DNA of 10,254 bases. Origin: Oscillospiraceae bacterium. GTDB taxonomy: Bacteria; Bacillota_A; Clostridia; Saccharofermentanales; Saccharofermentanaceae. The DNA lies in contig CADAXO010000094.1 of assembly GCA_902791885.1 (NCBI GenBank), positions 1-10,254 on the forward strand, read 5' to 3'. The notes under the pieces were generated by a model. It saw only the letters and a program-made list of their open reading frames with translations. It was not told the origin of the DNA and ran no database searches. A program made the translations under genes and the position numbers. Below are positions 160-10,254 of the stretch, piece after piece (the stretch's first letter is position 1; the number at the start of each line of letters is the position of its first letter).

Positions 160-1176
160 ATGTCTTCAGATAAGGTAAGTAAGAAGATTAAACTTAACGA
201 TAAAGAGAAAGAATCCGTCAAAGAGCAGCCGCAGATAACGACTCCTCTTACGACGGATCCTGCCCGTTTGGCGCAGATGAAAGCTGCTAAGAAGCGCTTC
301 CACAGAAGAAGAAAGATGAAAGACTGGGCTATGTTCACAGGCTATCTGACACCGAGCCTTGTCGGTGTTCTTCTGTTCTTCTTCCTGCCGCTTCTGATGA
401 TCCTCAAGACTTCTTTCCAGAAGTCGACTACAAACTATGATTTTGTAGGAGTTGCCAACTACGAAAAGGTTCTTACAAACGACGCCTTCAAGGACGCTGC
501 AATTAACACTTTGAGATTCTCGGGTATCGCAGTGCCTTTGGCAGTCGTACTCGCACTTTTGCTTGCGATACTTCTTAATTCCGGTATCCCGGCACAGAGT
601 GCTTTCAGAAGCGTACTTTTGAATCCTATGATGGTACCTGTTGCATCCATTGTTCTTATCTGGCAGGTATTCTTCAGCTATAACGGTGTTGCCAATGCAT
701 GGGGTATCAATCATCTGTTTGAGCCCGATAAGATAGACTGGCTTAAGTCGGATTATGCCCAATTGGTTATCCTCGCGCTGTTCCTGTGGAAGAACCTCGG
801 TTATAACATGGTGCTTTTCCTCGCGGCTCTTAACAGTATCGATGAGCAGATAATCGAATCCGCGATGATGGACGGTGCAGGTTCCTTAAGAAGATTCTTC
901 TCCATTAAGATGTTCTTCCTTGCACCGACGATCTTCTTCGTTGCGATCATGTCACTTATCAATTCATTCAAGATATTCCGTGAAGTATATCTTCTTACGG
1001 GCGACCACCCGTATACAAACCTTTATATGCTGCAGCACTTCATGAACAATGCTTTCAAGAACCTCGAGTACAGTAAGCTTTCAGCCGGCGCTATCATCAT
1101 GTGCGTTGTCATGATCGTTATCGTAGGTGCATTGTTCTTCGCCGAAGCAAAATTCGATTCGGATGTGGAGGGCTGA
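160..1176 (+). CDS. Carbohydrate ABC transporter permease, MalF/UgpA type
   Basis: This 338-residue inner-membrane permease forms one half of the channel of a sugar importer. About six helices can be read near residues 61-83, 117-139, 151-173, 199-222, 252-272 and 308-328. The FVGVANY motif (95-101) follows TM1 by about a dozen residues, as is usual. The cytoplasmic EAA loop, which docks on the ATPase, is at 233-256: E233-S-A, then D238-G239-A240, I249 and P256. The second Ala of EAA is replaced by Ser. A hydrophilic, Lys/Arg-rich stretch of about 55 residues precedes TM1 and is longer than usual. The start at 160 has only a weak AGGGG (142-146) 13 bases upstream, so translation may depend on coupling with the preceding gene. 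A start further in, at residue 40 or 53, is possible. No ATPase gene is nearby; Gram-positive importers of this class often share an unlinked MsmK/MsmX-type ATPase. Confidence 0.92.
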   Translation: MSSDKVSKKIKLNDKEKESVKEQPQITTPLTTDPARLAQMKAAKKRFHRRRKMKDWAMFTGYLTPSLVGVLLFFFLPLLMILKTSFQKSTTNYDFVGVANYEKVLTNDAFKDAAINTLRFSGIAVPLAVVLALLLAILLNSGIPAQSAFRSVLLNPMMVPVASIVLIWQVFFSYNGVANAWGINHLFEPDKIDWLKSDYAQLVILALFLWKNLGYNMVLFLAALNSIDEQIIESAMMDGAGSLRRFFSIKMFFLAPTIFFVAIMSLINSFKIFREVYLLTGDHPYTNLYMLQHFMNNAFKNLEYSKLSAGAIIMCVVMIVIVGALFFAEAKFDSDVEG

Positions 1177-1181
1177 TGATG
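1167..1181 (+). promoter_or_regulatory. Ribosome binding site and tandem ATG deciding the MalG-type start
   Basis: GGAGGG (1167-1172) lies inside the last codons of the upstream permease, followed by TGATGATG, which offers in-frame ATGs at 1176 and 1179. The spacing is 3 bases to the first and 6 to the second, so 1179 may be the start mainly used. The two choices differ by one Met. Confidence 0.7.
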
Positions 1182-2237
1182 CAGGAACCCAAGACATACG
1201 AACAGAAGAGAGAAGAAGCTACAAAGGCAAGACGTATTGTCTTTACCCACTACGAGCATGAGCCGTCTTTCTTTGAGAAGATGACCGACGCCGAGAGGGA
1301 AGAGTTTTTCAAGAACGAGAAAACAAGATCTTTAAAGGTCAGAAGAAGGAGAAGTATAGTCCACGGCACATCGATCACCATCGGCGTAGCGCTCGCGGTA
1401 GCTGTATCGATCCTTGCTATCGTGCCCGTATTCTATACATTCCTGAATTCATTCATGTCATCTGCGGAGATCTCACATAACTACGGAATGATCTTCCAGA
1501 GCCTGTCGGGTAATTCTGACAACGGCGCTGCATATCTTGCTTCGTCTCCCAGACTTACTCTGGTTCCGCAGAGAGTTACGATAGATCAGTACAAGAACCT
1601 TCTGTTCATGAGTCCCACGTATCTTCTTAAGTTCTGGAACTCGATCATCCTTGTTCTTCCTATCGTATTCGGTCAGATGGCAGTTTCCTGTCTTGCCGCA
1701 TACAGCTTCGCAAGATACAGAAGAAAGAGAAGAGAGGTTCTTTTCTTCTCATACATCATCCTTATGCTCATGCCTTTCCAGGTTACTCTGGTTCCTAACT
1801 ACATGATCTCGGAGCAACTCGGAATCCTGAACACAAGATGGGCTATCATATTGCCGGGTATATTCTCGACGTTCGCCATATATCTTCTTACCAAGTATAT
1901 GAGACAGATCCCGATCGCTTACATAGAAGCTGCGAAGCTCGACGGAGCGACCGAATGGCAGATATTCACAAAGATCGCCGTTCCGATGTGCGGAAGCGCC
2001 ATATTCGCTTTGTCGATCCTTCTGTTCATCGATTACTGGAACATGGTTGAGCAGCCGATCGTTCTTTTGCCTAACGCGGATCTTCAACCGATGTCGGTTT
2101 TCTTATCACAGATTAATGAAGCAGAGATAGGTATAGCATTTGCAGCATCAGCACTTTACATGATCCCGCCATTGTTGATCTTCCTCTGGGGTGAAGAGTA
2201 CCTCGTTGAAGGAATTTCAAGATCGGGCGTCAAATAA
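1176..2237 (+). CDS. Carbohydrate ABC transporter permease, MalG/UgpE type
   Basis: This is the second permease of the first importer, 353 residues from ATG 1176 or 352 from ATG 1179. The EAA loop matches the family consensus closely: E251-A-A, D256-G-A, F264, I267 and P270. The C-terminus EEYLVEGISRSGVK is the typical MalG-family ending. Helices lie near 66-90, 152-178, 187-209, 221-240, 270-288 and 322-338. The first 60 residues are charged and cytoplasmic. The TM1-TM2 loop, about 60 residues (91-150), is somewhat longer than usual and holds a Ser/Asn/Gly-rich patch. The gene overlaps the stop of the previous permease by one base, a sign of translational coupling and of a 1:1 heterodimer. 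The frame is open upstream to 1101, but that stretch is the other permease in a shifted frame and was not used. Confidence 0.93.
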   Translation: MMQEPKTYEQKREEATKARRIVFTHYEHEPSFFEKMTDAEREEFFKNEKTRSLKVRRRRSIVHGTSITIGVALAVAVSILAIVPVFYTFLNSFMSSAEISHNYGMIFQSLSGNSDNGAAYLASSPRLTLVPQRVTIDQYKNLLFMSPTYLLKFWNSIILVLPIVFGQMAVSCLAAYSFARYRRKRREVLFFSYIILMLMPFQVTLVPNYMISEQLGILNTRWAIILPGIFSTFAIYLLTKYMRQIPIAYIEAAKLDGATEWQIFTKIAVPMCGSAIFALSILLFIDYWNMVEQPIVLLPNADLQPMSVFLSQINEAEIGIAFAASALYMIPPLLIFLWGEEYLVEGISRSGVK

Positions 2238-2248
2238 CGGAGGAGTAT

Positions 2249-4123
2249 ATGAAGAAGCACGAGAATCAGAAGAGCAATCGTAAATGGGTCATAAAGGCTA
2301 TGATCGGTTTCATAGCGGTTCTTGCATTATTGACGTTCTTCTCGAACACGATAATGAACCTTACCATTCCGCTGGTTGTTACATCCACCGCCATGAGAGG
2401 TAACCTTGCTTATACTAACAGCGCGACCGGAACGGTCGTTGCCGACGGTCAGGTAGAGATCAAGGGACTCGACGGAAGAACCGTTAGCGAGGTTCTTGTA
2501 TCCAATTACGATAATGTACAGGCCGGCGATGTCATCATGACACTTGTCCCTGTTGAGGATATTCACGAGCTCACAGATCTTGAGAATCAGCTCCTCGCAG
2601 CTCAGCGCGAGCAGGAATATGCGGCAAGAACACCGAATCACGTTGACTACACAGTACAGAATACAGCGATCAGAACTGCTCAGCAGACTCTTGCCGATGC
2701 ACAGGCAACACTTAACGCTGCTACTACAAGAGATGAGACAATCGCTGCAGCTCAGCAGATCTTAAACGCCAACCAGGCTGCTGTTGTAGCTTTACAGGCT
2801 CAGGTTACTTCTGCTTCCTCTTCCGTTGAGAGCATCAACGCACAGCTTGCAGCATTGTATGCAAGGCTTGCTGTAATCGACGGAACGGCAACAGTTGTTC
2901 TTCCCACTCCCGTAACCGGAATGTATGCTCCGAGAACGACTCCTCTTAACGTTCTCAAGTTCGATCCCACAGATCCGATCGATCCTACTGATACTTCAGA
3001 TTCGACATCAGCACCGGAAGTGCCCGCTGATGCAGCAACAGGCGATCCTTCAGATTCAACGACAACAACATCTCCTGCGGAGACAACACCTCCGGTTTCC
3101 GCTCCGACGGATACCACCGCAACAACGGAATCAACAACTGCTCCGAGCATTCCTGCCGCAAGCGTTAACCCTGACGATGAGCGCGCTGCGATCATCGCAC
3201 AGATCGCACAGTATCAGGGTCAGCTTACGGATGCCCAGAACAGACTTGCAGGTTATTCGTCTCAGCTTGCTCAGGCACAGCTTGCAGTAACTTCCGCTCA
3301 GACAGCTATCACTACGGCACAGGAACTTCCCAGCACATATGCTGCCGAGGAAGCCGTAGTTGTTGCACAGGAAGCTTTGAACACTGCAACGGTCGCCCTT
3401 TCGGATGCACAGATCAATGCCGGCATCGAGGCAGATAAGAGACAGGATGCAGTTGAAGACAGAGAGCGTAACATTTCAAATCTTGAGGAACAGATCGAGA
3501 AGGTACGCGCAAGACTTCTCCAGAACGAGATCGTTGCACCCGCAGACGGCTATGTAGTAAACCTCTCGGCTACCCAGGGCGATAAGCTTCAGGAATCCGT
3601 TGTTATCTGCACGGTAGTTCCTTCCGAGACAACATATTCTGTAAGCTTTACATTCTCTACGAACGTTGCTCAAAGCCTCAGTGTAGGTCAGGAGCTGTCT
3701 TCCGATAATTACTCTTATATCGACAGGATCGTTATCACAAGCATTAAGCCCGATCCCAACAATCCGAGAGACAACCGTATCATAAAGTGTGCACTTTATT
3801 CCGATGTAGGACTGTGGCCCGGCGAGACGATCACCGTTACTGCCGACAGAGGAAACGCGAACTACGATCATGTAGTTGCATCAAGTGCCATAAGTGAAGA
3901 TAACGGCGGTAATTTCGTTTATGTAGTCGATCAGACTACAGGTCCTTTGGGCGACAGATATACCGTAAGAAGAGTTTCTGTCGGTATCGCGGCAAGATCC
4001 GGAGCTTTCACGGCTATCACTGGCGAGGGCCTCGATAACGTAATGGTAGTTACCCGAAGCGATGTACCTTTGCATAACGGCGACAGAGTACGTCTCGAGG
4101 ACTACAGCAACTCACAGAACTGA
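2249..4123 (+). CDS. HlyD/MacA-type membrane fusion (periplasmic adaptor-like) protein with an unstructured hairpin tip
   Basis: This 624-residue protein has one N-terminal membrane helix (about 15-32) and an extracytoplasmic adaptor body. The lipoyl/barrel-sandwich domain is split in the way expected of the family: first half about 56-104, second half about 426-460 with IVAPADGYVVNLSATQGDKL. Between them are two Ala/Gln-rich coiled-coil arms (about 105-208 and 309-425). A beta-barrel (about 460-535) and a membrane-proximal domain (about 540-618) follow. In Gram-negative bacteria such adaptors join an inner-membrane transporter to TolC; in Gram-positive bacteria relatives partner with MacB-like ABC exporters. 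Here the coiled-coil tip is replaced by about 97 Pro/Ser/Thr/Asp-rich residues (212-308). GGAGGAG (2239-2245) precedes the ATG. The gene starts 11 bases after the sugar permease and ends 11 before a MacB-like protein, which is its likely partner. The exported substrate, if any, is unknown. Confidence 0.88.
   Translation: MKKHENQKSNRKWVIKAMIGFIAVLALLTFFSNTIMNLTIPLVVTSTAMRGNLAYTNSATGTVVADGQVEIKGLDGRTVSEVLVSNYDNVQAGDVIMTLVPVEDIHELTDLENQLLAAQREQEYAARTPNHVDYTVQNTAIRTAQQTLADAQATLNAATTRDETIAAAQQILNANQAAVVALQAQVTSASSSVESINAQLAALYARLAVIDGTATVVLPTPVTGMYAPRTTPLNVLKFDPTDPIDPTDTSDSTSAPEVPADAATGDPSDSTTTTSPAETTPPVSAPTDTTATTESTTAPSIPAASVNPDDERAAIIAQIAQYQGQLTDAQNRLAGYSSQLAQAQLAVTSAQTAITTAQELPSTYAAEEAVVVAQEALNTATVALSDAQINAGIEADKRQDAVEDRERNISNLEEQIEKVRARLLQNEIVAPADGYVVNLSATQGDKLQESVVICTVVPSETTYSVSFTFSTNVAQSLSVGQELSSDNYSYIDRIVITSIKPDPNNPRDNRIIKCALYSDVGLWPGETITVTADRGNANYDHVVASSAISEDNGGNFVYVVDQTTGPLGDRYTVRRVSVGIAARSGAFTAITGEGLDNVMVVTRSDVPLHNGDRVRLEDYSNSQN
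2882..3172 (+). other. Low-complexity Pro/Ser/Thr/Asp linker inside the adaptor hairpin
   Basis: Residues 212-308 of the adaptor are rich in Thr, Pro, Ser, Asp and Ala, with runs such as DPTDPIDPTDTSDSTS and STTTTSPAETTPPVSAPT. They contain no predicted helix, while heptad-like Ala/Gln/Leu sequence lies on both sides. The linker is placed exactly where the coiled-coil hairpin should turn. It is probably disordered and possibly glycosylated. Confidence 0.8.
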
Positions 4124-4134
4124 CGGGAATATAT

Positions 4135-5433
4135 ATGGCATTAAGTAACAGAGCGAAAAGATACGTCAAGGAAGTCTACCGCGACACCAGAAGGAAGGTT
4201 AAGAAAGTTGTTCTTGCCGCTCCCTTCTGGGTGCTGTTGGCTGCCTTGGTCATGACAGGAACGGGTATCGGAAGATACATCTACCTCACAGGACAAAGAT
4301 ACGATCAGAACATGGCATCCTACTGGATCAATGATTCAGAGACTCTTGCAAGGCACATGTCGGTATACTCAAGAGGTGCCAGATACGGCGGAGATATGAC
4401 TCCTCCGATATATATAAGCCAGAGTGTATCTTTAAGCAAAAGCGATATCATAACGATCAGAACGTCTCTTCAGAACTTTGTTGATTCAAGTTCCGGAGTA
4501 GCAGGCAAGACAGGTCTCGGTAACGACGGAAGACCCAGAGGCTGGGAGGACTGCTATTCGTCATATCTGTCGGCAACCGTGGATACGGTCCCCGATCCTA
4601 ATTCAGAGACCCCGTTGTCGTTTACAAGTACATGCGACATCATTGCCATCGACGGCAACTATCCTGTATTCCATCCGTTCACTTATTTGTCAGGCGGATT
4701 TCTCCCCGAGATTGTCGAGGATGCAAGACAGATAGTATTGAATGATGTTCTGGCATGGAAGTTTTACAAGTCTTACGACATCATCGGCAACAAGGTTAAG
4801 CTCTGGGGTGAGGAATTCACTGTAATAGGTGTTGTTTCCGAGCCTTCAGACAGAATAGCCATAAGTGCCGCAGGCGGTGAGATCCCGAGAGCTTATGTTT
4901 ATTTTAGTGCTATGGAAGATCTGGCTCCTCTGACAGCTCCTTCCGGCTCCACGGATAACTCACAGTCCGATTCCGGCGGAAGTTCGTCGAATACCGCGCA
5001 GCCCACAACGGCTCCCGCATCGGCAGGTCAGACCGGTTCAGCAGATCCTTCTGCAGTCCCCGGATCCGGAAGCAATTCCCGCCCTGTTATGGCGGTGCTT
5101 TGCTACGAAGCAATGCTCCCTGAGATCATCAAGGGTGTAGCTAAGACAGATATGAGTTCTTCGGTTCCCAACTACAATCCGGTCGATCAGAATTTCTATG
5201 TCTTAAGCAACACGGGAAGATTCAACGTTTGGAACGTCTGGAAGCTTATGTCACCCATTGGACAGTTCGAAAGTTCCGTATCAGACTTCGATTTCCCTTT
5301 CTGGGAGAAGACGGCACAGCTTGCCACGGAACACCTTTATGTTGACGAATGGCTTACGATCTCAGGCGTTGTATTGCTCGGCACAGGCTCCATTATGGCG
5401 ATACTCCGCTTCCGTAAAATGTCTCGAAAATGA
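4135..5433 (+). CDS. MacB-like extracytoplasmic core protein with only two membrane helices
   Basis: This 432-residue protein has a basic N-terminus, a helix at about 25-44, a large external domain, and a second helix at about 404-424 with a short basic tail. Residues 160-262 resemble the MacB periplasmic core: LSGGFLP, then QIVLNDVLAWKFYKS, IIGNKVKLWGEEFTVIGVV and a later YVYF strand. This follows the family layout of G-F, a conserved V-L strand, IG-x-V and FTVIGVV. Normal MacB/FtsX-type permeases have four helices, three of them after the core, and MacB also carries an ATPase. This protein stops after the second helix, and the base sequence downstream shows no continuation. A Ser/Gly/Thr/Pro-rich linker (263-316) interrupts the domain. 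The ribosome site is weak (GGGAA, 4125-4129), and the gene lies 11 bases after the adaptor gene. The MacB assignment comes from motif reading and is moderately sure; transport activity without an ATPase partner is doubtful. Confidence 0.72.
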   Translation: MALSNRAKRYVKEVYRDTRRKVKKVVLAAPFWVLLAALVMTGTGIGRYIYLTGQRYDQNMASYWINDSETLARHMSVYSRGARYGGDMTPPIYISQSVSLSKSDIITIRTSLQNFVDSSSGVAGKTGLGNDGRPRGWEDCYSSYLSATVDTVPDPNSETPLSFTSTCDIIAIDGNYPVFHPFTYLSGGFLPEIVEDARQIVLNDVLAWKFYKSYDIIGNKVKLWGEEFTVIGVVSEPSDRIAISAAGGEIPRAYVYFSAMEDLAPLTAPSGSTDNSQSDSGGSSSNTAQPTTAPASAGQTGSADPSAVPGSGSNSRPVMAVLCYEAMLPEIIKGVAKTDMSSSVPNYNPVDQNFYVLSNTGRFNVWNVWKLMSPIGQFESSVSDFDFPFWEKTAQLATEHLYVDEWLTISGVVLLGTGSIMAILRFRKMSRK

Positions 5434-5463: not shown

Positions 5464-5497
5464 TAAAATACAGGATATTATCTTAGGAGGAATTACT

Positions 5498-6685
5498 ATG
5501 ATCGGTAACAGAAAGAGTAAGTTAACGGCAGTGGTATCCACTCTGTTGGCCGGCGTATTTCTGATGAGCGCATGTTCGGTCAACATGAACGGCATAGGCA
5601 ATGCTTTCTCCGATCTCGGAAATAATCTCAATGAGGCTGTAAGCAGAAACAGCCGAAACAATGACCGCGAAGAAGATGAAGATACGGAAGAGACTGTAAT
5701 AGTTATCGAGGAAACGGTCGAAGAGACGGAGCCTTCAGAGACTGAAGCCGAACCGGATCCCGAGCCTACAGCTACACCGACTCCTACTTCAACACCCACT
5801 CCGACACCTTCTCCCACGCCTGTTCCGCAGCGTGTGGATTTCTCGGAGCTTACCGAGGATCAGCTTACTGATTCGATCGATATTGAAACAGAAGACTTCT
5901 CCGAGTCTGCTCATGCAGAAGATGATGACGATATTATCCTTGCAAAGTTTACGGGTGAAAGAGTTCTTATATCATCTGATGAGATCTCAGGTCCCGTTAC
6001 ATCAGTTAACCTTATGCTCGATGCTTTCTATATGGAAGCTGAGGGAATATATAACAGAGTAGTTAACGAGCAGTATGCGGCATATGCACTCGATCCCGAG
6101 ATGGTCCCTGATACGATCGAAGTATCCGTATCTTATGAGTATTTCTTTAACGGAAGACTGCTGTGTATAGTCATGAATTATTCTGAGACTTCGGATGACG
6201 ATGTTCTTTTGACGCATACCGAGTATTACAGATTCGATCTTTATACAGGCCAGATAGTTTATTCTGATATGCTGGTCAATGATGTTGACGGATTCTACGA
6301 TGCACTTGCCGAGGCAGTTGCCGACAGCACAAGAACACCTGCGGACGATGCGGAGGATTATGAAATTGAATTCTTTACCGTTGAGACTGATGATGACGGA
6401 ACGCAATTAGTCATTGCCGCAGTCAAGGATGGCGACGGATTCGAATATTACACCGTGGAGTTCCCGGATCTTTATGACGGACTTACCCGTTACGGAAGGA
6501 TCGTTTGGAATGTCTCATACGTTGAAGTAGTCGAGGCTGATGAGGAAGAAGACCAAGACGATGAAGACAGAGACGACGAAGAAGAGGATGAGGAAGAAGA
6601 GGAAGAAGCCGATGAAGAGGCTTCTGACAGGGATGAAGAGTCAGATACGGCTGATGACTCTTCTGAGGATGAACGCGGGCGCTGA
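5498..6685 (+). CDS. Acidic surface lipoprotein with Pro/Thr stalk, possibly RsiV/DUF3298-like
   Basis: This 395-residue product has a basic N-terminus, a hydrophobic core and a lipobox FLMSAC with Cys26, so it should be lipid-anchored outside the membrane. Met at -3 is less common than Leu. In order it has an Asn/Ser-rich part, an acidic stretch (57-90), a Pro/Thr spacer (91-110, PTPTSTPTPTPSPTPVP), a folded domain (about 145-345), and a tail (346-395) made almost wholly of Glu and Asp with Ser. In the folded domain, VNLMLDAFYMEAEGIYNRVV and later HTEYYRFDLYTGQIVYSDML recall the H...FDLxTG...DL pattern of DUF4163/DUF3298 proteins such as PdaC and RsiV. This is a weak, unverified likeness. 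The start is set by AGGAGG (5485-5490) 7 bases before the ATG. The frame is open upstream to 5258, but only inside the previous gene. Its role is unknown; it may be a wall-spanning surface or sensor protein. Confidence 0.85.
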   Translation: MIGNRKSKLTAVVSTLLAGVFLMSACSVNMNGIGNAFSDLGNNLNEAVSRNSRNNDREEDEDTEETVIVIEETVEETEPSETEAEPDPEPTATPTPTSTPTPTPSPTPVPQRVDFSELTEDQLTDSIDIETEDFSESAHAEDDDDIILAKFTGERVLISSDEISGPVTSVNLMLDAFYMEAEGIYNRVVNEQYAAYALDPEMVPDTIEVSVSYEYFFNGRLLCIVMNYSETSDDDVLLTHTEYYRFDLYTGQIVYSDMLVNDVDGFYDALAEAVADSTRTPADDAEDYEIEFFTVETDDDGTQLVIAAVKDGDGFEYYTVEFPDLYDGLTRYGRIVWNVSYVEVVEADEEEDQDDEDRDDEEEDEEEEEEADEEASDRDEESDTADDSSEDERGR

Positions 6686-6945: not shown

Positions 6946-8268
6946 ATGAAGACAAAGAAGATTATTGCTTTGATGTTGTCATTGGCAATGGCTGCAGCAG
7001 CTCCCGCTGAGACAGAAGAAGCAGCTCCCGCTGAGACAGAAGAAGCAGCACCCGCTGAGACAGCTGATGCTACTGTAGACGCTTCTGCTTACACAGAGCT
7101 TGCTATTGCTGATGTTGCTGATGAGGATGATGAAGTTGTAGTTTATGGCTTCAATGAGGAGGTTAAGAACCTCACTGAGACATATTCTGACATCGCAGTT
7201 CGTTACGAGCAGCAGTCATCTGACACAATTCAGCAGGTACTTGACAACGTTCTCGCTTCTGGTGAGGACGCTCCTGACATGTTTGCTTGCGACGCAGACT
7301 ATGCCAGAAAGTACATGCAGTCTGACAACACATTGCCTATCAACGATCTCGGTATCGCTTACAGCGAGCTTACTGAAATGTACAACTACACACTTCAGTT
7401 CGCTACAGATAACGAGAACGTAATTAAGGGTCTTGCTTGGCAGGCTTGTCCTTGCGGCGTTTTCTATAACAGAAGCGTTGCTCAGGCTACACTCGGTGTT
7501 TCCGAGCCTGATGAAGTAGCTCCTTACTTCGAGAGCTGGGATGCATTCCTCGAGACAGCAAGAACAGTTGCAGCTTCAGGTGAGTACGTTGCAATTTCTG
7601 CTACAGGCGACATCATGAGAGCTATCCTTGGTTCTCGTACTGAAGCTTGGATCGTTGACGGCGAAGTTACTATTGATCCTGTTATGGAGCAGTATTTCGA
7701 CCTCGCTAAGACACTCCACGATGAGGGCCTCACACACGAGACATCTCAGTGGCAGGATGCTTGGACAGCTGATATGTCCAACGGCACAGTTCTTTCTTAC
7801 TGGGGACCTATGTGGCTTGCTAAGTTCTCCATGGCTCTTGATCCTTCTGTTAACGACGTACCTAACCCGACATCCGGTGATTGGGGTATCGTAGCAGCTC
7901 CTGGTGATTCTTACTGGGGTGGTACATGGCTCATGGCTTCTAAGTACTGCAACTCTAAGGCTTCCGTAGCTCAGATCATGAGAGACATCTGCATCAACAC
8001 AGCTTCTCTCCAGGATATGGCTAACAACGGTGAGTTCGTTAACAACATCTCCATCATGACAACTCTTGGTCATGACGATGCATTCGGTCTCGAGTGGCTC
8101 GGCGGCCAGAACCCTATCCCGGTTCTCCTCGATGCAGCTACAAAGATCGACAACTCTGTAATCACGATCAATGACGGTGCTATCAACGATCAGTTCAACG
8201 CTGTAGTTGAGTCTTACATCCAGGGCGATATCGCTACTGTTGCTGAGGCTGAGTCCGCAAGCAGTTGA
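6946..8268 (+). CDS. Sugar ABC transporter substrate-binding protein (family 1), lipobox missing
   Basis: This 440-residue extracellular binding protein is for the second importer. After the N-terminus, VVVYGFNEEVKNL starts the family fold. LASGEDAPDMFACDADYARKY, FYNRSVAQ, ESWDAFLETA, GPMWLAKF and a late WGIVAAPG with WGGTWLMASKYC follow the normal order of carbohydrate binding proteins, with Trp/Tyr residues suited to stacking on sugar rings. The signal region has a basic start and a hydrophobic stretch (about 6-19), then passes straight into AAPAETEE repeats with no Cys, so no lipid anchor is predicted. Signal peptidase I could cut near AMAAAAPA. The C-terminus stops soon after ESYIQGDIATVAEAES, about 15-20 residues short of typical relatives. 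AGGAGG (6932-6937) lies 8 bases before the ATG. Codons are highly uniform (GCT, GTT, ACA, AAC, CAG), as in highly expressed genes. The sugar is not identifiable. Confidence 0.9.
   Translation: MKTKKIIALMLSLAMAAAAPAETEEAAPAETEEAAPAETADATVDASAYTELAIADVADEDDEVVVYGFNEEVKNLTETYSDIAVRYEQQSSDTIQQVLDNVLASGEDAPDMFACDADYARKYMQSDNTLPINDLGIAYSELTEMYNYTLQFATDNENVIKGLAWQACPCGVFYNRSVAQATLGVSEPDEVAPYFESWDAFLETARTVAASGEYVAISATGDIMRAILGSRTEAWIVDGEVTIDPVMEQYFDLAKTLHDEGLTHETSQWQDAWTADMSNGTVLSYWGPMWLAKFSMALDPSVNDVPNPTSGDWGIVAAPGDSYWGGTWLMASKYCNSKASVAQIMRDICINTASLQDMANNGEFVNNISIMTTLGHDDAFGLEWLGGQNPIPVLLDAATKIDNSVITINDGAINDQFNAVVESYIQGDIATVAEAESASS
6997..7062 (+). repeat. 24-bp tandem repeat encoding AAPAETEE
   Basis: Two identical 24-base units (6997-7020 and 7021-7044) are followed by a partial third unit (7045-7062) with one changed base (GCACCC for GCTCCC). 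The repeat keeps frame and codes for the acidic Pro/Ala/Glu spacer after the signal sequence. Such units can expand, contract or be collapsed in assembly, which bears on the missing lipobox next to it. Confidence 0.92.
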
Positions 8269-8360: not shown

Positions 8361-8406
8361 AACTAAAAAGAACTTTTGGGCAAAATAATTTTGGAGAGTG
8401 ACCAAG

Positions 8407-10254
8407 ATGGCAAGAGGTACAAATACATCTTCCAGACGTAAAGGTATGAGTTATACCAAGTTTGGCTACATCTTTGTGGCCCCGTTCGTCATCGCATACT
8501 GCTTGTTCAGCCTTTATCCGTTGCTTACCACTTTCTGGTATTCCGGAACATTCATGCAGAACGCTAATGCGAGCTTCTGGGGTTTTGATCACAGAGAGGT
8601 TTATTATGACAGATACCTTGACCTGAATTCATTCTATGATGATCTCCAGGGAAGCACAGGTATCAATCCTGCGGATTATGCGAAGATCAAGAACTTCTTC
8701 TCCGCACAGGAAGTAGCTGACAGATACACACCTATCGATCCTGACGGCCTTACGGCTCTCGTAAACAACGGTGATATCTCTCAGGCAACAAGAGACAAGA
8801 TTCAGCAGGTTATCGATACAGGAGATATCTCTTATATCGCAGCTGACGAATCAGTTATGGCAGAACTCAATGAATGGAGTTCAAACTATGTAGATCTCGG
8901 ACTTACTGTCATCGGACAGTTGGGAAGAGTAAACGCAGCAGCTACAGAAGCTGCAACATTAGAGTCATCCGGTGAAGAGGGTGAAGAAGACGGTATTACT
9001 GCTGAGGATATCCTCACAAGCAGCCAGTACGAGAGCTTCCTCGAGACTCTTCAGGCAAATGATTTCGATGAGGGCCAGCAGCTCCTCGTCAACTACATCA
9101 CAGCTAAAGTCGGTGTAGATTCACTTTATGATTTCTTTGCAGCAGAGGATGTTGCAGTTGATTCAGATGATTTCTATTTCATCTGTTCCAACCTCGATTC
9201 ACCTAATGCTGTTTATACAACAGAGGAAGGCGAGACACCCGTTAATGCTATCGCTGTTCCTTTCATGAACGATCTGACCAAGTTCCTCAATGCTAATTCA
9301 TGGTCAACATCGGTTCCTGCAATCAGCACATATTCTGATTTCCAGGGTTATATCGATGGTGATATCGAACTGCATTCTAACCAGGAGCAGCTCTATGCTG
9401 ATCTTGAGACTCTCTACAACATGGGTCTCATCAATAATCAGGTTCAGCTTGTTCAGGAGGGCGATGCACTCGTTCCTTCATCTAACGTTACAAACAATGT
9501 ACTCGAAGCTATGCGTCAGTACATTGACAGCAACTATCAGTCAGATGAAGTTAAGACAGATTCTTCACTCCAGATTACTTGCCTTAACAACTATCTTGAC
9601 GCTGCTATGAACTCCGGTCGTAAGAAGCTTATTGACGCAGGTATTGACATTGACCGTTACATCTCATTCAGCGGCCAGTTCGACATGGACAAGTACCTCG
9701 AGTTCAAGGCTCTCATCGGTATGGATACTGTCCTTACATTGGATAAGTATAATGAGCTTGATGAAGCAAGAAAGCTTAAGAACCAGGAGAAGGCTCAGTC
9801 CAAGCTCGAAGAGGCGCAGGCTGCTCTTCCTGCTGCTCAGGCTGCATATGACGCCGCTGTTGCATCCGGTGATGAAGATGCAATCAACGAGGCATATGAA
9901 GCTCTTACAGCTGTAAACGTTGCTATCACTGACAACCAGTCCAAGGTTAACAGACCTTCCGGTCTTCTCGAGAAGGCTGATGCTACAAGAGATTATATCT
10001 TCGTAGGTATGGACAACTTCGGTGATATCTTCGGAAACAAGTACAGATTCAACAAGGTATTGGGAGCATTCTATACGACATTCGTAATGTGGATCATCGG
10101 CTTCATTCCTCAGGTCCTCTTGGCACTGCTCCTCTCTGCTTGGTTCACTGATACCAAGCTCAAGCTTAAGGGTCTCAATCTCATGAAGGCTTTGATGTAC
10201 TTGCCTAACGTTATCACAGCGGCAACCATCGCTATCTTCTTCAGAAGATTGTTC
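8407..10254 (+). CDS. MalF-type sugar ABC permease with a giant extracytoplasmic insertion (partial, 3' end outside window)
   Basis: The frame is open from ATG 8407 to the last base, giving 616 codons with no stop. Residues 19-45 are a normal first helix of a MalF-type permease, FVAPFVIAYCLFSLYPLLTT. The family motif expected about a dozen residues later, here FVGMDNFGDIF, appears only at 532. It is followed by normal second and third helices (about 553-578 and 592-611, with YLPNVITAATIAIFF). The roughly 485 residues between form an extra domain outside the membrane. It is acidic and mostly helical-looking, with an acidic patch near 188-197 and a likely coiled coil at 446-515 (KLEEAQAALPAAQ and similar). 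I recognise no known domain. GGAGAG (8393-8398) lies 8 bases before the ATG; the in-frame GTG at 8398 is too close to it. The EAA loop lies beyond the window. Codon bias matches the binding-protein gene. Confidence 0.88.
   Translation, partial: MARGTNTSSRRKGMSYTKFGYIFVAPFVIAYCLFSLYPLLTTFWYSGTFMQNANASFWGFDHREVYYDRYLDLNSFYDDLQGSTGINPADYAKIKNFFSAQEVADRYTPIDPDGLTALVNNGDISQATRDKIQQVIDTGDISYIAADESVMAELNEWSSNYVDLGLTVIGQLGRVNAAATEAATLESSGEEGEEDGITAEDILTSSQYESFLETLQANDFDEGQQLLVNYITAKVGVDSLYDFFAAEDVAVDSDDFYFICSNLDSPNAVYTTEEGETPVNAIAVPFMNDLTKFLNANSWSTSVPAISTYSDFQGYIDGDIELHSNQEQLYADLETLYNMGLINNQVQLVQEGDALVPSSNVTNNVLEAMRQYIDSNYQSDEVKTDSSLQITCLNNYLDAAMNSGRKKLIDAGIDIDRYISFSGQFDMDKYLEFKALIGMDTVLTLDKYNELDEARKLKNQEKAQSKLEEAQAALPAAQAAYDAAVASGDEDAINEAYEALTAVNVAITDNQSKVNRPSGLLEKADATRDYIFVGMDNFGDIFGNKYRFNKVLGAFYTTFVMWIIGFIPQVLLALLLSAWFTDTKLKLKGLNLMKALMYLPNVITAATIAIFFRRLF

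Follow-up and report, generated by a model that had tools for sequence, protein, structure and literature searches.

A giant outer domain, predicted to be mostly helical, at the P2 position of a MalF-type permease from a likely cello-oligosaccharide importer

The permease loop best known for talking to a binding protein is P2 of MalF. In the Escherichia coli MalFGK2-E importer, P2 comprises MalF residues 91-271 and contacts the binding protein, with segment 240-249 touching MalE directly (PMC3150292, in excerpt); for the domain described here such a contact is only hypothesised. Also alike are CuaABC-CbpA of Ruminiclostridium cellulolyticum, a cellobiose ABC importer with a cellobiose phosphorylase, and athe_0595-0598 of Anaerocellum bescii, likewise a cello-oligosaccharide ABC importer, with two binding proteins; both are compared by description only, and the excerpts that describe them mention neither a giant permease domain in the former (PMC10384115) nor an insert in the latter (PMC12838199). 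The same excerpt of PMC10384115 describes another cellobiose-binding protein of R. cellulolyticum as working for a sensor.

The giant permease and its gene neighborhood

The window (the whole stretch of 10,254 nucleotides analysed here) ends in a gene which, by its sequence relationships, is a MalF-type (type I) sugar ABC permease with a six-helix core. The genes discussed below are:

160..2237, + strand: second sugar permease pair, of another transporter (MalF-type with a short loop, 160-1176; MalG-type, about 1176-2237)
2249..5433, + strand: upstream cassette (HlyD-like adaptor, 2249-4123; MacB_PCD-like protein, 4135-5433)
5495..6685, + strand: lipoprotein-like gene of no convincing family, with an acidic tail
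6946..8268, + strand: solute-binding protein of family 1 (SBP_bac_1), closest among solved proteins to one named cellobiose-binding
8398..10254, + strand: MalF-type sugar ABC permease with the giant insert, 619 codons of it in the window, whose end cuts the gene

The giant permease gene has start codons at 8398 (GTG) and 8407 (ATG), and its frame stays open to the window end. For the whole protein we use its nearest full relative, P0002 (811 residues, 98% identical over the searched part), from which the C-terminal ~195 residues beyond the window are taken by analogy. P0002 scores the BPD_transp_1 profile at 35.2 bits (curated cut-off 26.4), and the window copy, cut by the window end, gives no match to this profile. 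Relatives of the giant permease display the EAA-type coupling-helix motif YESAQxDGA at a position outside the window; the name EAA also occurs in the excerpt of PMC3150292. A whole-protein profile of the giant permease matched AlgM1 and MalF among solved sequences, and the window permease alone had no match to PDB sequences at E 1.

A scan of genome contigs recovered at least 547 relatives, the best 80 of which were retained as loci: 28 carry the insert (proteins of 808-915 aa) and 52 are free of it (281-396 aa). The first-pass annotation had asked whether homologues of the insert always sit beside a family 1 SBP, and such a gene lies directly upstream in 27 of the 28 insert loci among these best 80 of at least 547; in the 28th the contig starts 85 bases upstream of the permease. 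A MalG-type permease gene follows directly 3' of the giant permease in all 28 (outside the window), overlapping it by 61 bases in L015. Downstream, 22 of the 28 feature a GH94 gene; of those lacking one, L002, L013, L015 and L018 have just 432-3270 bases left, and L011 and L026 extend for nearly 10 kb without it. In L003, the one locus examined in this way, the nearest solved relatives of the first GH94 protein are cellobiose phosphorylases and those of the second are cellodextrin phosphorylases. These phosphorylase neighbors in the relatives make it likely that the transporter imports cello-oligosaccharides. The combination expected of such an importer, a cellobiose phosphorylase with a cellobiose-type SBP in one gene run, is found in the relatives, and the window holds the SBP only, with a weak match to its cellobiose-binding relative (E 3.3e-10, over 189 residues). 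The same gene run in L003 also includes, after the GH94 genes, a GH5 cellulase with two DUF4214 stretches (L003:20023-21723). No ATPase gene was recognised beside the giant permease in the loci read, and presumably the ATPase is a shared subunit of the MsmX/MsmK type. The lipoprotein-like gene lies upstream of the SBP in 22 of the 23 insert loci with at least 3 kb of upstream sequence.

The 52 insert-free permeases of the best 80 of at least 547 (Lachnospiraceae, Ruminococcus and others), which have 38-64% identity in the best BLASTP segment, show the same order of SBP, MalF-type and MalG-type genes, and GH94 is among the nearest matches listed in 16 of these 52 loci (at only 33-34% identity in L061 and L067). 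Hence, the insert is not needed for such a neighborhood, and this type of transporter works without it. Short-loop paralogues from the same family as the insert (L111-L121) share the gene order but differ in that 10 of the 11 loci, L111 being the exception, have a GH3-like gene, which points to a different sugar, probably in a pentose or xylo-oligosaccharide system. The GH3-like calls were made from the first residues. Pfam, run on L112 and L113 alone, confirmed GH3, transketolase and FGGY kinase there, and transketolase-like neighbors are frequent across these loci. A further arrangement was seen in 15 hand-chosen GH94 loci from 15 of the 83 insert-free genomes of the family: in 13 (L095-L105, L108 and L109) an SBP gene directly precedes GH94 with no permease between them, the place of GH94 in L103 and L105 coming from a separate search, as a longer antisense frame masks it there. 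For GH94, the starred branches of a quick tree with 28 in-group rows force at least three changes in the presence of the permease pair; for the SBP, those of a quick tree with 38 in-group rows force at least one, with two by parsimony, and the trees do not settle whether the pair was gained or lost. The SBPs of L103-L105 are 28-31% identical to that of the window, and the stem that leads to them in the SBP tree is long (1.72), as though constraint had changed.

Size, position and predicted structure of the insert

The segments of the giant permease in and around the insert are:

8452..8544, + strand: TM1 (P0002 16-46), structure-aligned with MalF starting at residue 55-58
8545..9975, + strand: extracytoplasmic insert (P0002 47-523), a net gain of ~468 residues against insert-free relatives
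8575..8628, + strand: best conserved insert stretch, membrane-proximal FWGF...YYDRYLDL (P0002 57-74)
8590..9726, + strand: globular part (P0002 62-440), nearly all-helical apart from two beta hairpins; block means of pLDDT are mostly 81-96
9739..9951, + strand: predicted coiled-coil hairpin (P0002 445-515)
10000..10017, + strand: FVGxxN motif, where the permease core picks up again (P0002 532-537)
10039..10155, + strand: predicted helix 545-583 of the structure model, including TM2

We measured the insert as the interval between two conserved residues, P38 in TM1 and G534 (P0002 numbering, G534 being part of the GxxNF motif), which spans 488-599 residues in all 44 full-length insert-bearing rows and 25-36 residues in all 30 insert-free relatives aligned (30 of the 52). 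In the sequence nearest to the window it is 495 residues long, giving the net insert of ~468, and in the upstream permease (160-1176) it is ~19 residues, counted on the translation. The distinction drawn in the first-pass annotation between a giant loop in the one permease and a short loop in the other thus holds, as do the insert edges that it placed at 8545 and 9999, which match the end of the predicted TM1 (8544) and the start of FVGxxN (10000). It had also held that the frame stays open with unchanged codon use: the former is borne out by the 619 codons up to the window end; as to the latter, GC3 dips in the insert (0.451) relative to its two flanks (0.531 and 0.609) and lies near the value of the binding-protein gene (0.47). 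Across seven pairs, dN/dS by Nei-Gojobori-type counts is 0.13-0.18 in the insert and 0.07-0.17 in the membrane part, with the widest pair near synonymous saturation; the insert is under purifying selection. Searching with words from residues 50-550 recovered, at E <= 0.001, 40 clusters of proteins with identities of 31-98%; BPD_transp_1 is present in 38 of them.

Two alternative readings take the insert for an artefact or for a diverged P2. A misjoin, a frameshift or an erroneous gene fusion might be suspected given that the window end cuts the gene, so that the whole protein is not within the window. Against this, the insert recurs at the same place in 28 of the 80 loci, on separate public contigs, and in 32 of 115 genomes, with no stops inside it and under the selection noted above; these independent contigs refute the artefact, to which we assign next to no probability, and together with the 40 clusters they exclude chance and vindicate the earlier view of the insert as a true part of the protein. 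Close homologues with a short loop, which would have spoken against it, do exist in part, as the 52 loci above and the same-family paralogues, some of them in insert-bearing genomes, but they mark the insert as an added option rather than as an artefact. That the insert is a P2 homologue has in its favor the identical site in the identical subunit. In the core alignment with MalF of E. coli K-12 (25% identity, 248 columns), residue 531 of P0002 corresponds to MalF 257; Pfam places MalF_P2 (PF14785) at MalF residues 100-260, and the structural alignment pairs P0002 13-791 with MalF 55-510. Together these put the insert, which lies between core TM1 and TM2 as MalF_P2 does, at the P2 position, where the first-pass annotation had located it. 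Its further claim that the insert is much larger than P2 and unrelated to it is upheld in size (~468 against ~160 residues) and in sequence. The MalF_P2 profile has no match in P0002 or in any of six insert genomes, and it recovers E. coli MalF at 4.1e-61 and only E. coli among 14 control genomes. Moreover, comparison of the insert profile with MalF returned a probability of 0.05%, and the insert is predicted to be nearly all-helical, in contrast to P2, whose segments lie in loops between antiparallel beta-sheets (PMC3150292, in excerpt). Homology to P2 is accordingly very improbable, and one and the same spot of the importer seems to have grown independently in two lineages.

The insert is confined to a narrow phylogenetic range. 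Of the 115 genomes searched from one family of Clostridia, 32 contain it; across the order the same 32 of 188 genomes have it, with none among the 73 outside the family, and in a class-wide sample it occurs in 5 of 391 genomes, all among the 32. In a quick tree of the membrane core with the insert omitted (75 rows), the 35 insert-bearing rows fall on one side of a branch with an SH-aLRT of 100, the outgroup branch being very long. The simplest reading of these distributions is that the insert had a single origin within this family. Many insert-locus record titles name ruminant gut or horse faeces; those of L021 and L023, the deepest insert branch, do not. When 5.8 billion proteins were searched with the insert profile (7994 candidates scored), the 40 matches were 37 BPD_transp_1 permeases and three shorter pieces of 323-548 aa. 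As the longest contigs of these three are below 4.5 kb, we consider them fragments, and the candidates scored included no stand-alone copy.

An AlphaFold model of P0002 from a 74-row alignment (mean pLDDT 85.2, pTM 0.61) has a pLDDT of about 90 in the insert, with block means of 81-96 except for 62-63 at residues 181-200. It predicts a nearly all-helical fold with two short beta hairpins, followed by a helical hairpin, whose helices at 445-487 and 490-515 agree with the coiled coil anticipated toward the insert end. Among the 28 insert rows the coiled-coil part varies from 68 to 162 residues, and the globular part stays within 388-433. The longest inserts (566-579 aa; L024, L025 and L052) owe their surplus mostly to the hairpin, which has 136-162 residues as against 71. 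Conservation is highest in a 25-residue membrane-proximal stretch (0.77 against a mean of 0.57). The insert has a charge of -54 and no hydrophobic segment, and the N- and C-terminal tails of the protein carry +5 and +6. By the positive-inside rule, positive tails at both ends of a six-helix core put the insert outside, and we infer that it faces outward.

Profile methods applied to the insert alone, a check that had been proposed for it, yielded no convincing known domain. Pfam gave no family for the window insert at E 0.1; across the 28 insert rows at the same threshold, 18 families appeared, of which 17 matched a single row and the remaining one matched two, and none of them is an SBP family, as a fused substrate-binding domain would require (a separate SBP gene is present), or a carbohydrate-binding or wall-binding family. 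The best of these matches, a baculovirus protein at 8.9e-4, is regarded as chance, as is the lone match of the insert profile to PDB sequences, ribosomal S15 at E 1.8. Fold searches with the model returned the permease core or generic coiled coils. Among the titles and abstract starts listed from open-licence literature, none describes this insert. Judged by sequence, a transporter of known type here carries a domain that is conserved, specific to one clade and outside the recognised families.

Candidate roles of the insert

As the best explanation, we posit an importer comprising a lipoprotein binding protein, the giant permease and the MalG-type permease, which would deliver cello-oligosaccharides to cytoplasmic cellobiose and cellodextrin phosphorylases. 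In the relatives the binding protein has a lipobox and would be tethered: a cysteine follows the signal stretch in all 25 SBP relatives that exceed 40% identity and retain their N-terminus (two fragments omitted). The first outside loop would have gained its domain of ~470 residues, most simply once, in one family of Clostridia, such that TM1 and TM2 hold a globular helical body and a coiled-coil hairpin above the mouth of the transport path. There it may hold or orient the tethered binding protein at the permease in the manner of P2, or capture and concentrate released cellodextrin, so that in a wall lacking a periplasm substrate delivery would be faster or tighter. We rate a probable cello-oligosaccharide importer with an outer domain of this P2-like or cellodextrin-capturing kind just short of an even bet. 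More tentative is the fuller picture of a cello-oligosaccharide importer in which a large helical domain for docking or capture, bearing a coiled-coil arm and of a sequence family undescribed in these searches, arose once and came by convergence to act like P2 from the same position in a bacterium without a periplasm.

Rate covariation was analysed in the 20 of 28 insert loci in which all five parts were found, a small set of sequences from one gene run with a shared history. With the other parts accounted for, the distances of the insert and the SBP showed no covariation (partial r 0.047, p 0.36; 20 loci, low power), and those of the TM core and the SBP did covary (partial r 0.62, p 0.0005; same 20 loci). 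Mean distances are 1.18 for the insert, 0.65 for the SBP and 0.34 for the TM core, and this fast evolution of the insert is not what a tight, fixed interface with the SBP predicts and counts against one. The SBP is also acidic (-47), so that the two lack charge complementarity. Given the absent covariation and the shared acidity, we consider P2-like docking or capture of the binding protein plausible, with no better than an even chance, despite the low power.

The same lack of covariation with the SBP would suit an insert that instead serves as a surface adaptor. Its target might be the wall, the lipoprotein encoded nearby, a cellulase on the surface or cellulose itself, and the binding would site the importer where cellodextrins are released. 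An exposed, fast-evolving domain with a coil of variable length on a globular part of steady size fits this role, as do the GH5 cellulase in the L003 gene run and the record titles that name gut or faeces for many insert loci, albeit not for the deepest branch. However, the lipoprotein-like gene does not depend on the insert: of the 15 insert-free GH94 loci, 9 have it near the SBP, which down-weights a role tied to the lipoprotein; the insert and lipoprotein rates do not covary significantly either (partial r 0.125, p 0.14; 20 loci), and the Pfam search returned nothing that binds carbohydrate or wall. We thus hold the adaptor to be rather unlikely. Less probable still is a mainly structural insert with no specific partner, one that helps assembly or, as a rigid lid or spacer, shields the outer mouth or gates it: the membrane-proximal location of its best conserved stretch and the loosely constrained coil length are compatible with this, but a spacer would not require a complete globular domain in which conserved residues are spread throughout and dN/dS is 0.13-0.18. 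A second domain at the P2 site, unrelated to P2 in sequence and about three times larger, would suggest that this site is a general place for evolving control of substrate delivery. Related bacteria that have or lack the insert, many of them of ruminant-gut origin, offer a natural comparison.

Some further features of these loci merit mention. The N-terminus of the window SBP (6946-7080) has no lipobox cysteine, and ~20-25 residues are missing there beside a short AAPAETEE repeat; this gap is either an in-frame deletion specific to the strain or the result of a collapse in the assembly. The 160-5433 segment of the window displays an odd combination of importer-type permeases beside exporter-type parts. 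Very large upstream proteins occur in some relatives: L095:2868-5567 encodes one of 899 aa with an SBP domain at 538-804, a protein of 879 aa upstream in L096 matched no family, and L005:1-1575 belongs with these observations of large proteins and of importer-type beside exporter-type parts. The first permease of this upstream cassette (perm1) is itself found in 102 of the 115 family genomes at E <= 1e-60.
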